A DNA stretch of 64,000 nucleotides from Sphingomonas spermidinifaciens (GTDB lineage Bacteria; Pseudomonadota; Alphaproteobacteria; Sphingomonadales; Sphingomonadaceae), in NCBI RefSeq assembly GCF_002351485.1, contig NZ_NWMW01000003.1, positions 1 through 64,000 of the forward strand. Reading direction: 5' to 3'. Made by a program: the position numbers and the translations under genes. Shown here piece by piece: positions 25,328 to 29,630 of the stretch. Below the pieces are notes generated by a model. It was not told the DNA's origin. It made no database searches and was given only the letters and a program-made list of their open reading frames with translations. Every line of letters starts with the position of its first letter. Position 1 is the first letter of the stretch.

Positions 25328-27112
25328 GTGGCGGACATGGCGCTCGACATCCGGAACAGCGGGCTTTCCGATGCCCTCGTCATCCTCGGCTCCGCCGGGC
25401 TGGTGATCCCTGCCTTCGCGCGTTTCAAGATCAGCCCGGTGATCGGCTTCATCCTCGTCGGCATTCTCGTGGGGCCGAACGCGCTCGGCTCGATGGTCGA
25501 CCGATATCCGTGGCTCTATTTCGTCACCATCTCGAACGCCGAGGCGATCGAGCCGTTCGCCGAGTTCGGCATCATCCTGCTCCTGTTCTCGATCGGGCTC
25601 GAGCTGTCGTTCCGGCGGCTCTGGGCGATGCGCGTGCAGGTGTTTGGGCTGGGTGCGGCGGAGCTCGTGATCTCGGGTCTGCTGATCGGCACTGCACTCT
25701 ACCTGATGGGACAGGCATGGGGCGGCGCCATCGGCCTGGGCCTGGCGCTCGCGCTTTCCTCGACCGCGCTCGTTCTCCCGCTCGCGGGCACTACCAGCGC
25801 GATCGGGCGCGGCGCGTTCGCGATGCTGCTGTTCGAGGATCTGGCGCTCGTCCCGATCATCTTCATGCTCGGCGCGCTCGCGCCGACCGCCACGGACGAG
25901 GGCTGGAACGGGCTGGCGGAGGTTGCGATCGCCGGCGGCATCACCATCGTCGCGCTCTATGTCGCCGGGCGCCTTGTCCTTCCGCGCATGTTCGGACAAG
26001 CGGCGCGGACGAAAAGCCCCGAGCTGTTCCTTGCCGCCAGCCTGCTTGTCGTCATCGTCGCCAGCCTCGCCACCGCGGCGGCCGGCCTGTCGCCGATCGT
26101 CGGCGCGCTGCTCGCCGGTCTTCTGATCGCCGAGACCGAATATCATGAGGAGGTCGACGCGATCACCGCGCCGTTCAAGGGACTGGCGCTCGGCGTGTTC
26201 CTGATCTCGGTCGGCATGGCGCTCGATCTCAGACTCGTCGCGCGGTACTGGCCCGAACTGCTCGCGGCGATCGCAGGGGTGATGGCGGTCAAGACGCTCG
26301 TCACCATGGTTGCGCTTCGCCTGTCGGGCACGCGGCCGGGCGTCGCCGCCGAAACCGGCGTGCTGATGGCCAGCCCCTCGGAAACCACGCTGATCGTGCT
26401 CGCGGCGGCGGGCGCGGCGGGGCTGATCCAGCCGTCGACCGCGGCGTTCTGGACCACCGTTACCGCGATCGGCCTGACGATCACCCCGCTCCTCGCCAAG
26501 GGCGGCCGCCTGATCGCCCGACGGATCGAGGCTAAAGCAGGCGGGCCGACCGAACCTGCGGACCTCGGCAGTGTCGTGTCGAACGGCACCGTCGTGGTCG
26601 GCTTCGGCCGCGTCGGCCGCACCATCGCCGACATGCTGCGCGCGCATGACAAGCCCTATCTCGCGATCGAGGCCGATATCGACGTCGTCAACATGGCGCG
26701 CGCCGAGGGCTATCACGTCCAGTTCGGCGACGTGGCGCGATCGGACATGGTCGATCGCCTGAACCTCGGCCATGCCAAGGCGCTGGTCATCACGATGGAC
26801 GATCCGGTGTTGAGCGTCCGGCTGACGCGGCGGGTGCGCGGCTGGGTGCCCAATCTGCCGATCATCGTCCGCGCGCGTGACGCCGCGCACGCCGCCGCGC
26901 TCTATCGCGCGGGGGCGACCGACGCGGTGCCCGAAACGCTCGAAAGCTCGCTGCAATTGTCGGAGGCACTGCTCGTCGATCTGGGCGTCGCGGTCGGGCC
27001 GGTGATCGCCTCGATCCACGAGAAGCGCGACGAGATGCGCAAGACGATCAAGGACGCGGCCGGGCTCGAGCGCGAGCCGCGCATCCGCCGCGTCCGCCAG
27101 GCTGAAGCTTGA
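25328..27112 (+). CDS. Monovalent cation:proton antiporter-2 (KefB-like)
   Basis: A 594-residue inner-membrane CPA2 transporter, exchanging K+ or Na+ for H+. About 12 hydrophobic segments fill residues 15-400 (FARFKISPVIGFILVGILVG near the N-terminus, ALSSTALVLP and VGMALDLRL within). A cytoplasmic TrkA-N nucleotide-binding domain follows from VVVGFGRVGRTIADML. GTG 25328 is used; ATG 25337 is an equally possible start. The permease gene's TTG start overlaps its stop. Confidence 0.93.
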   Translation: MADMALDIRNSGLSDALVILGSAGLVIPAFARFKISPVIGFILVGILVGPNALGSMVDRYPWLYFVTISNAEAIEPFAEFGIILLLFSIGLELSFRRLWAMRVQVFGLGAAELVISGLLIGTALYLMGQAWGGAIGLGLALALSSTALVLPLAGTTSAIGRGAFAMLLFEDLALVPIIFMLGALAPTATDEGWNGLAEVAIAGGITIVALYVAGRLVLPRMFGQAARTKSPELFLAASLLVVIVASLATAAAGLSPIVGALLAGLLIAETEYHEEVDAITAPFKGLALGVFLISVGMALDLRLVARYWPELLAAIAGVMAVKTLVTMVALRLSGTRPGVAAETGVLMASPSETTLIVLAAAGAAGLIQPSTAAFWTTVTAIGLTITPLLAKGGRLIARRIEAKAGGPTEPADLGSVVSNGTVVVGFGRVGRTIADMLRAHDKPYLAIEADIDVVNMARAEGYHVQFGDVARSDMVDRLNLGHAKALVITMDDPVLSVRLTRRVRGWVPNLPIIVRARDAAHAAALYRAGATDAVPETLESSLQLSEALLVDLGVAVGPVIASIHEKRDEMRKTIKDAAGLEREPRIRRVRQAEA

Positions 27113-28443
27113 GCACGCCCGCACAGGCCGGCCTTGGCCGGCCGCGGCCGACGCTGGGGCCGATCGACCTGCTCGCGCTGATCGTCGGCATCGTCATCGG
27201 TGCGGGCATCTTTCGCACCCCTGCCCTTGTCGCGGGAATGGCGGGGAGCGAGGGCGCGCTCGTCGCGGTCTGGGTCGCCGGCGGACTGCTCTCGATCGTC
27301 GGCGCCCTCTGCTATGCCGAGCTTGCCGCCACCTATCCGCATGTCGGCGGCGACTATCACTTTCTCGGCCTCGCCTACGGCCCACGCATCGCCTTCCTCT
27401 ATGGCTGGGCGCGGCTGGCCGTCATCCAGACGGGCTCGCTGGCACTCCTCGCCTATGTCTGCGGCGACTATCTTCAGGCGCTGCTGCCGCTCGGCCCCGT
27501 CGGCTCGAGTCTGTGGGCGGGTACAGCCGTCATCGTCATCACCGCGATCAACTGGCTGGGCGTGCGCGAGGGGGCGGCGGTGCAGCGCTGGCTGACGCTG
27601 GCCGAGGTCGGAGGACTCGTGCTGCTGATCGTCGCCGGCTATGCCGCCGATCGCGCGCCCCCCGCACCGGTGACGGCCGGGGGCGGATCGGTCGGGCTGA
27701 TGCTCGTCTACGTCCTCCTCACCTATGGCGGGTGGAGCGAGGCGGCGTATCTGTCGGCGGAGGTGCGTGGCAGCAAGCGGCGCATCGCCTCGGTCCTCGT
27801 CGCGGGGCTCGCGCTCGTCACCGCGCTCTACGTCCTCGCCAACCTCGCCTTCGTTAACGCGCTCGGCCTTGACGGGGTGGCAAAGAGCGAGGCGGTCGCG
27901 GCAGAGGTCGCACGCGCCGCGTTCGGCCCCACCGGTGCCGCGCTGATCGCCGGCGCCGTCGCGATCGCGGCGCTGACCTCGGCCAACGCGACCGCGATCA
28001 CCGGCGCGCGGACGACCTGCGCGATCGGCCGCGAGTATCCGGCGCTCCGCTGGCTGGGCCGCTGGAACGAGGCGCGGGATACGCCCGCCAATGCGCTGCT
28101 TACGCAAGCGGCGATCGCCCTGCTGCTGGTCGGCGCCGGGGCGGCCGCACGTGACGGGTTTGCGCTGGTGGTCGACTACACCGCGCCGGTCTTCTGGCTG
28201 TTTCTGCTGCTTACCGGCCTGTCGCTGTTCATCCTCCGCCGGCGCGACGCCGCGATCGAGCGGCCCTTCCGTGTGCCGCTCTATCCGGTGACGCCGGCAC
28301 TTTTTTGCGCGACGACCGCTTATCTCCTGTGGTCGAGCCTCACCTATACCGGCTGGGGCGCGCTTGCGGGGTGCGCGGTGCTGGCGGCGGGCGCGGCGCT
28401 CCTCCTGTTCCTGAAACCGGCCGCGACGGAGATGGCGTCATGA
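27109..28443 (+). CDS. APC-family amino-acid permease
   Basis: A 444-residue inner-membrane carrier with about 12 helices. The N-terminal LLALIVGIVIGAGIF and the Glu/Tyr-containing ALCYAELAATYPHVGGDYHF are standard APC amino-acid/polyamine signatures. Translation appears to start at a TTG overlapping the antiporter stop (TTGA). Its own stop overlaps the next start by ATGA. Substrate is unknown. Confidence 0.9.
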   Translation: MSTPAQAGLGRPRPTLGPIDLLALIVGIVIGAGIFRTPALVAGMAGSEGALVAVWVAGGLLSIVGALCYAELAATYPHVGGDYHFLGLAYGPRIAFLYGWARLAVIQTGSLALLAYVCGDYLQALLPLGPVGSSLWAGTAVIVITAINWLGVREGAAVQRWLTLAEVGGLVLLIVAGYAADRAPPAPVTAGGGSVGLMLVYVLLTYGGWSEAAYLSAEVRGSKRRIASVLVAGLALVTALYVLANLAFVNALGLDGVAKSEAVAAEVARAAFGPTGAALIAGAVAIAALTSANATAITGARTTCAIGREYPALRWLGRWNEARDTPANALLTQAAIALLLVGAGAAARDGFALVVDYTAPVFWLFLLLTGLSLFILRRRDAAIERPFRVPLYPVTPALFCATTAYLLWSSLTYTGWGALAGCAVLAAGAALLLFLKPAATEMAS

Positions 28444-28976
28444 AATCGCTGATGCTCTGCCTTGCCCTGATCGCTGCGCCCGCCATTGGCCAGACCCCGC
28501 CACAGAACCCGCCCGAGCGACTGCCCGACGTCATCTATGTTCCCACCCCGCCCGAGGTGGTGGCGGCAATGCTCGACCTTGCCGAACTTAAGGACGGGGA
28601 TGTGCTCTACGACTTGGGCTCGGGCGACGGACGCATCCCGATCGCCGCGGTCAAGCGCAACCGCGTGAAGGCGACGGGCATCGACATCGACCCCACCCGC
28701 ATCGGCGAGGCCCGCGAGAATGCGCGCGCGCAAGGCGTCGAGGGCAAGGTGACGTTTAAACAGGACGACATCTTCACCACCGACTTTTCGGACGCGAGCG
28801 TGGTCACGCTCTATTTGCTCGATTCGCTCAATGAAAAGCTGCGCCCGCGGCTGATGCAGCTGAAGCCGGGCACCCGGATCGTCAGCCACGCCTTCCGAAT
28901 GGGCGACTGGCAGCCCGAGGCCGAGCGCGATATCGGCGGCCGCCGCATCTTCCTGTGGCGCGTGCCCAAACGATGA
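28440..28976 (+). CDS. Exported class I methyltransferase-like protein
   Basis: A 178-residue protein with an N-terminal signal sequence (MKSLMLCLALIAAPAIGQ, predicted cleavage near 18) followed by a Rossmann methyltransferase core. The SAM-binding motif I is YDLGSGDGRIPIA (about 60-72) and the acidic strand-2 motif is GIDIDPTRI. The leader VIYVPTPPEVVAAMLDLA is a recurrent feature of this exported family. SAM is normally cytoplasmic, so the location is puzzling. The start overlaps the permease stop by ATGA. It could be a cofactor-free binding protein. Confidence 0.8.
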   Translation: MKSLMLCLALIAAPAIGQTPPQNPPERLPDVIYVPTPPEVVAAMLDLAELKDGDVLYDLGSGDGRIPIAAVKRNRVKATGIDIDPTRIGEARENARAQGVEGKVTFKQDDIFTTDFSDASVVTLYLLDSLNEKLRPRLMQLKPGTRIVSHAFRMGDWQPEAERDIGGRRIFLWRVPKR

Positions 28977-28982
28977 GCCGCG

Positions 28983-29630
28983 TCACCGCTTCTTGAAGAG
29001 AAGCCACATTCTGGGGCGGCCGGTCGGCTTCCTGACACCGTCGATCCGCTCGACGCGCAGGATCGGGATGGGCCTCAGGATCATCTGGCCCTTCATCGCA
29101 TCGAACCCGCCACCGGTCGGCACCGCCAGGATCCGCTTGGCGACTGCCATTCCGGCGATAACCCGCCCGAACGCGGCATAGCCCAAATAACCTTCGCGCC
29201 CGTCGAGCTGTGGCGCCGGGCCGACGCAGATCACCCAATTGCCGCCCGCCGACTTGGGATTGGCCCCCCGCGCCATCGAGATCGCGCCATCGACATGGCG
29301 CAGCCCCGTTTTGGTCGTCGGCTCGAACGCAAAGGGCGGCAGGATGCGGCGCGCGTCGGTCTGGATCCCGCCCTGGATGAAACCGGTGCCGGGGATCTTC
29401 TTCGATCGCGCCGCGCGATAGAAGCGCGTGCCGTCGAACCGCTCGTCATCGACATAGGCGAGGAAGTTGGCGGTCGTCGCCGGTGCCCGCCGCGCATCCA
29501 GCGCGACGATGATCGCACCCACCGGCGTCACGATCCGAACCCGCACGACGGCCGGCTCGCGCGCGGCGGCCGCGCGCGGGGCGGCCAGCAGCGCCGCACC
29601 GCCCGCGATCAGCCCTCGCCGCGTCAGCAA
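28983..29630 (-). CDS. Exported cyclophilin-type peptidyl-prolyl isomerase
   Basis: Predicted periplasmic proline isomerase of 215 residues. The N-terminus MLTRRGLIAGGAALLAAP has a twin-arginine and hydrophobic stretch resembling a Tat signal. The cyclophilin core has ATTANFLAYVDDERFDGTRFYR, GFIQGGIQTD and YAAFGRVIAGM. It ends 2 bases before the maeB stop region, so the two are likely cotranscribed on the minus strand. It converges on the methyltransferase-like gene 6 bases away. Confidence 0.88.
   Translation of the reverse strand: MLTRRGLIAGGAALLAAPRAAAAREPAVVRVRIVTPVGAIIVALDARRAPATTANFLAYVDDERFDGTRFYRAARSKKIPGTGFIQGGIQTDARRILPPFAFEPTTKTGLRHVDGAISMARGANPKSAGGNWVICVGPAPQLDGREGYLGYAAFGRVIAGMAVAKRILAVPTGGGFDAMKGQMILRPIPILRVERIDGVRKPTGRPRMWLLFKKR

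Follow-up and report, generated by a model that had tools for sequence, protein, structure and literature searches.

A signal-bearing aKMT/FAM173-like methyltransferase paired with an L-type-like permease suggests methylation outside the cytoplasm in some bacteria

S-adenosylmethionine (SAM) is generally regarded as a cytoplasmic cofactor, and the locus described here raises the question of what a SAM-dependent enzyme with an export signal would do outside the cytoplasm, and why its gene is coupled to that of a permease. Both genes are on the forward strand of a 64,000 nt stretch of Sphingomonas spermidinifaciens DNA (NZ_NWMW01000003.1, positions 1 to 64,000; hereafter, the window). The first (27109-28443, with a listed TTG start at 27109) codes for a 444 aa permease of the APC superfamily, similar to L-type amino acid transporters, and was assigned from PF13520, solved structures and the gene pairing described below. 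The second (28440-28976) codes for a 178 aa class I (seven-beta-strand) methyltransferase (MT) of the aKMT/FAM173 kind, as judged from sequence, profiles and structure comparison. The two are coupled as the original prediction had it, by an ATGA overlap (28440-28443) that holds the permease stop and the ATG start of the MT, and a GGAG motif is found upstream of the latter at 28428-28431. A further gene (25328-27112, + strand), presumably for a KefB-type antiporter, overlaps the listed permease start, while directly downstream of the MT is a convergent gene (28983-29630, - strand) for a cyclophilin-type peptidyl-prolyl isomerase with a twin-arginine-like N-terminus (MLTRRGLIAGGAALLAAPRAAAA). 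No match to the antiporter-like gene or to the cyclophilin was found in six orthologous Sphingomonas loci (about 10 kb each).

The first 17 residues of the MT (28440-28490) are predicted to form a Sec-type signal peptide, a call made by eye and with a hydrophobicity rule, using no trained predictor. The N-terminal sequence is MKSLMLCLALIAAPAIG, followed across the likely cleavage site by QTPPQ; it has one lysine, a hydrophobic core and an A-x-G motif ahead of that site, and so displays the positive N-region, hydrophobic core and small residues associated with Sec export. The N-termini of orthologues are of the same kind. A later start codon that would remove the signal, the weak point named in the original prediction, is absent: a scan of the frame found no ATG, GTG or TTG between M5, within the signal, and V40, which is already past the conserved DVxYVPTP segment (residues 30-37; its YVPTP part, at 28536-28550, opens the catalytic domain), so no downstream start yields a complete MT without the signal. 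Behind it, the SAM-binding motifs are intact, again as predicted, and comprise motif I (DLGSGDGRI, residues 58-66; 28611-28637) and post-I (GIDIDP, residues 80-85; 28677-28694). An alignment of 44 family members shows that D58, L59, G60, G62, D63, G64 and R65 of motif I are invariant, as is P85 of post-I, with G80 and D82 nearly so. Outside these motifs, N131, H150 and W157 are also invariant or nearly so.

Profile searches placed the MT among general methyltransferase domains in Pfam (PF13847, E 1.1e-11), and the best NCBIfam match was NF041081, an equivalog for archaeal protein-lysine N-methyltransferases (131.3 bits, under the cut-off of 200). Sequence matches among solved structures were 5BXY (E 3.9e-44) and the Sulfolobus aKMT entries 5FA8 and 5JWJ. 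An AF2 model built on the 44-row alignment (pLDDT 93.2) was compared with solved structures by VIA-align, and the top match was 5bxy_A (Z 28.0, rmsd 0.8, 149 aligned residues, 51% identity), followed by 5fad, an aKMT-SAH complex (Z 27.6, rmsd 1.3, 152 aligned, 43% identity), with 5fa8 at Z 25.5 and the best fold outside the 5BXY/aKMT group at Z 18.8. By their titles, 5BXY and 5FAD contain SAH, and 5FA8 contains SAM. The 5BXY chain is identical (148/148 residues) to the mature part of an MT from a Bacteroidota sample (L209, G1178) that starts, at full length, with a signal peptide (MSRLRFLSVVLLALGLLLGHGPRSGYAQ) and has a permease adjoining on the same strand. A member of the gene pair has therefore already been crystallised, without its signal region and under the title of RNA methyltransferase. 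Judged by this close relative, the SAM site of the window MT is intact. The suggestion that an exported enzyme might bind a different nucleoside is not favoured, because the nearest structure holds SAH and corresponds to the mature part of a family member that carries a signal and is linked to a permease.

Export was then considered across the family, using one scan of named genomes from which the best 80 of at least 537 confirmed relatives were taken, a sample biased to near kin. The loci come from Acidobacteriota, Cyanobacteriota, Bacteroidota, Pseudomonadota, Myxococcota, Planctomycetota, Verrucomicrobiota and other phyla. By a simple rule, 69 of these best 80 have an export-type N-terminus, classed loosely as Sec-like or transmembrane (32), lipoprotein-like (25) or Tat-like (12, the loosest class). 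The same rule applied to 22 other class I methyltransferases gave 3 positives and 16 negatives, with no start found in 3. One weak match among these controls (L019) has a signal-like N-terminus (MKHLMILLWPAVWLVLGTDAPVLADD) and is possibly another exported methyltransferase type. Elsewhere in the family sample, a hydrophobic segment comes with another possible start in the same frame at four loci (L068, L084, L110 and L123), one (L064) had no start that could be found, and six (L119, L121 and L124-L127) look unsignalled, L119 and L121 having only a short, doubtful alternative. L124, L126 and L127 have an acidic N-terminus. No match to the permease at E 1e-40 was found in the five genomes whose MTs look unsignalled (G869, G870, G872, G873 and G874).

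Within Sphingomonas, paralogues of the MT show, by eye, lipoprotein, Tat-like, Sec-like or anchor-type N-termini, and the copies in two genomes (G039 and G321) have no signal. The window genome itself carries a second exported MT, lipoprotein-looking (L038), and one permease at the threshold used. Predicted export is thus a well-supported trait of the family, and the range of signals, from Sec-like, lipoprotein-like and Tat-like forms to membrane anchors, makes the proposed action before export less likely. Two variant architectures were also seen. A set of Sphingomonas paralogues (L037, 4642-5406, and L040, L042, L045, L046 and L047) has, beyond the catalytic domain, a C-terminal extension of very roughly 70 residues that is similar among them, and at eight loci in four genomes (L145-L148 and L151-L154; G526, G639, G728 and G798) one open frame encodes two MT domains, preceded by one membrane segment at the N-terminus.

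The coupling to a permease recurs well beyond the window. The nearest relatives of the MT are from Sphingomonas, and in all seven genomes of this genus holding the orthologue (7/7, window included) a permease gene is directly upstream. Among the 80 named loci (the best 80 of at least 537), a permease homologue is present in the examined flanks of 42; it is a strong match (at least 273 bits) on the same strand as the MT at 38, lying upstream at 35 and downstream at three (L053, L086 and L109), and a weaker, divergent permease at three Aminicenantes loci (L107, L108 and L113). A 62-bit match at L110 was counted as spurious. No third conserved neighbour was seen in the 80 loci, the best unrelated cluster after the permease reaching 7/80, and clusters larger than this overlap the MT gene and were taken as its other reading frames. 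None of the six clearly unsignalled named MTs is paired with a permease, compared with 38 of the 74 others (Fisher p 0.027, a value that overstates independence given the common ancestry of the genomes).

The pairing also holds in the other direction. A permease profile was searched against genomes of Cyanobacteria (146), Pseudomonadota (398) and Bacteroidota (198), and every permease scoring at least 577 bits has an MT within 1.5 kb (14/14, 5/5 and 7/7, respectively; 26/26 overall), a line that was set after the gap to the weaker matches had been seen, with a profile built from paired permeases that include at least four of the 26 cases (G000, G010, G879 and G880). Weaker permease relatives have no MT within that distance (0/33), neither in Pseudomonadota (0/10, 284-528 bits) nor in Bacteroidota (0/23, from 41 such permeases). 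In each of the 26 pairs both genes are on the same strand, the permease gene preceding the MT gene in 21 and following it in five, and all 26 MTs begin with a hydrophobic stretch of the export type. Across the 398 Pseudomonadota genomes, the MT is present in nine, a permease of at least 517 bits in seven, and both in five (Fisher p 3e-8, likewise overstated by shared ancestry); of the four genomes with the MT only, two copies look unsignalled (G321 and G380) and two exported (G357 and G229). No fusion of the two genes was found among 99 MT and 52 permease ORFs. Distances between MTs and between permeases co-vary (Mantel r 0.74, 38 pairs, with 0/2000 permutations as high), a correlation that is largely due to common ancestry and is not taken as proof. 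On the MT tree the pairing label needs 14 changes, but with only 20 starred branches among the 93 inner ones, gain and loss of pairing are indistinguishable there. A check on whether the pairing is conserved had been proposed with the original prediction, and the answer is positive: it recurs across phyla and in both directions, which supports the common function that had been suggested for the two genes. As far as sequence comparison can take it, the MT-permease pairing is well supported, and the link is old.

Exceptions were surveyed in 48 genomes, many of them draft MAGs, behind 50 loci (38 without a permease, the three with divergent permeases, L110 and eight paired controls). Leaving the controls aside, ten genomes encode a permease of high score (at least about 456 bits) at another place; five of these permeases have another MT beside them or in a cluster (L190 and L193-L196), two stop at a contig end and are not judgeable (L188 and L189), and three (L198, L197 and L192, with scores of about 456, 511 and 668 bits) lack an MT out to a distance of about 3 kb. 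Exported MTs are also present in genomes that gave no permease of this type. In Acidobacteriota, the best LAT-like match is at most 307 bits in all 15 sampled genomes, and there was no permease match at E 1e-40 in either Caulobacter genome or in G847, G855 and G878, where the MTs are exported or probably so. An exported MT evidently needs no such permease, unless the draft genomes hide one.

The window permease matches PF13520 at 160.4 bits (cut-off 27, E 8.9e-47) and, among solved structures, BasC (E 3.8e-46) and the amino-acid transporters of the b0,+AT and LAT1 group, while its match to TIGR00911 (169.1 bits) is far under the cut-off of 701.8. According to PMC6472337, a substrate of BasC needs alpha-amino and alpha-carboxyl groups, which are held by TM1, TM6 and Tyr236, and the TM5 lysine (K154) is called fully conserved in LATs. 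In 64 paired permeases, a set with near-duplicate rows, the columns of BasC G19, G21 and Y236 are G in 61, G in 60 and Y in 62, three rows being gapped in TM1. The TM6 gate (F199 in BasC) is leucine in 61 of the 64 and phenylalanine in eight of 10 unpaired permeases (L166-L168, which gave no usable frame, are left out of the count); leucine in the other two (L164 and L169) means that it marks a wider group than the paired permeases. At the position of BasC Ala200, 63 of the 64 have threonine or serine, and at that of K154 there are 26 with glutamate, as in the window permease, 26 with lysine and 12 with other residues. A kept head-group site together with a changed gate would fit an amino acid substrate other than those of BasC, and perhaps a bulkier one. 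SAM and SAH are plausible candidates on this sequence evidence, because both have a free alpha-amino-acid head group and the permease site for it is kept. The proposal draws on genomic context and head-group chemistry, and the kept site would equally suit methionine, some other amino acid or a product of methylation.

Two loci carry several MTs beside one permease. In a betaproteobacterial MAG (G851; L200, C2:12000-30961), seven MT genes, all with signal-like N-termini by eye, and one permease gene are found on one strand, six of the MT genes within about 7 kb around the permease, and in a second betaproteobacterial MAG (G848; L201, C148) five MT genes with signal-like N-termini, also by eye, share about 6 kb with one permease. 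The MT proteins of both loci are mostly longer than that of the window, with an extra C-terminal part. Where several divergent MTs accompany one permease, the simplest reading is that the permease carries what all of them need, and the seven and five MT genes favour a shared co-substrate.

The best explanation for these observations, to which we give a probability of roughly 0.4, is that a periplasmic or outward-facing MT of the aKMT/FAM173 kind, probably acting on lysines of proteins in the envelope or secreted from the cell, is served by a SAM/SAH exchanger. In S. spermidinifaciens, the Sec system would export the MT, whose signal is seen in the sequence, and the enzyme would fold outside the cytoplasm, where it would be periplasmic or attached to the membrane and facing outward. 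The L-type-like exchanger, recognising alpha-amino acids, would then most likely carry SAM out and SAH in, and lysines on these target proteins would receive the methyl group, as kinship with aKMT suggests.

The strongest competitor, although an unlikely one, keeps the exported SAM-dependent MT but gives the permease another cargo, namely the methyl acceptor or the product. This could be an amino acid, with or without an added methyl group, or fragments released from a methylated polymer, and SAM would leak into the periplasm or arrive there through a different carrier. Such cargo suits a permease that resembles amino-acid exchangers, but relatives of the aKMT type act on protein lysines (PMC9006661), which speaks against it. 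The occurrence of exported MTs without the permease fits this proposal, but five to seven divergent MTs per permease in two genomes are more easily explained by a common co-substrate. Alternatively, the MT could act in the cytoplasm, through slow export or a retained pool, with the signal serving only for turnover or membrane proximity. SAM is synthesised in the cytoplasm, and nothing precedes the catalytic domain in the aKMT chains of the PDB, both of which speak for this possibility; we nevertheless consider it improbable, given the Sec-like, lipoprotein-like and Tat-like N-termini in the family, the anchors of several Sphingomonas paralogues, and the six clearly unsignalled MTs of the 80 named, which are never paired with the permease. 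If anything less probable is an exported protein without catalysis, which would bind SAM or SAH and capture or sense it for uptake by the permease. A transporter as partner, lipoprotein forms that resemble binding proteins and the SAH in 5BXY could all be accommodated, but the whole aKMT fold is kept, N131, H150 and W157 are invariant or nearly so, and LAT-type exchangers are not known to require a binding protein. Finally, it is very unlikely that the MT modifies the permease itself, as FAM173A (ANT-KMT) modifies the mitochondrial ADP/ATP carrier (PMC9006661), since this precedent and the two-way gene pairing are opposed by the five to seven MTs per permease in two genomes and by exported MTs without one, and 26 aligned paired permeases have no lysine that is invariant or conserved at 90% or more.

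Returning to the exported MT supplied by a SAM/SAH exchanger, a broader version can be put forward still more tentatively, in which many bacteria of several phyla would possess a dedicated extracytoplasmic methylation system consisting of a LAT-derived SAM/SAH exchanger and one or more exported aKMT/FAM173-type MTs. If true, SAM would be a periplasmic co-substrate, envelope proteins would be methylated after export, and the permease would stand as a specific candidate for the bacterial SAM exporter serving this methylation. The pairing also gives the solved structure 5BXY a biological context. In the open-licence literature (titles and abstract openings), no report of a pair of exported methyltransferase and permease was found, and a search for 'periplasmic methyltransferase' with S-adenosylmethionine found nothing; PMC9751292 and PMC4636158 do not concern this MT family. 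Our results suggest that, in some bacteria, methylation takes place outside the cytoplasm with a transporter supplying the methyl donor.

Mitochondria have a SAM carrier, and its pairing there with FAM173 enzymes may have a bacterial counterpart in the proposed extracytoplasmic system. Among known transporters, the window permease is nearest to BasC and the mammalian LATs (LAT1, b0,+AT and y+LAT), with the GAG of TM1 and the TM7 tyrosine kept, but it differs in having leucine for the gate residue F199, glutamate for Lys154, and a score below the TIGR00911 cut-off. For the MT, the closest solved protein is 5BXY of Salinibacter ruber, which is of the same family and fold, although its chain starts just ahead of the catalytic domain and lacks the signal region; its title of RNA methyltransferase looks misleading, and no support for an RNA substrate was found in this analysis. 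The aKMT of Sulfolobus islandicus (5FA8, 5FAD and 5JWJ), a broad-specificity protein-lysine MT, shares the fold, 41-44% identity, the motifs, and the YVPTP and SHxF segments, but the solved archaeal chains consist of the catalytic domain from their first residues on and lack a signal peptide, and the window MT scores below the NCBIfam equivalog cut-off for this type (131.3 vs 200 bits). According to PMC9006661 and PMC5828452, aKMT is related to mitochondrial FAM173A/B and has homologues in alpha-proteobacteria, and FAM173A (ANT-KMT) and FAM173B (ATPSc-KMT) resemble aKMT and carry a membrane segment at the N-terminus, a kinship taken here by report; unlike the putative bacterial system, these two enzymes act in mitochondria. 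Lysine methylation of envelope proteins is described elsewhere, for AtaA by KmtA and for OmpB by rickettsial enzymes (PMC11784438 and PMC10450907). KmtA and the rickettsial PKMT1 and PKMT2 resemble the MT as proposed here in methylating lysines of surface or outer-membrane proteins, but differ, by the description in PMC11784438, in having a dimerisation domain beside the SAM domain.
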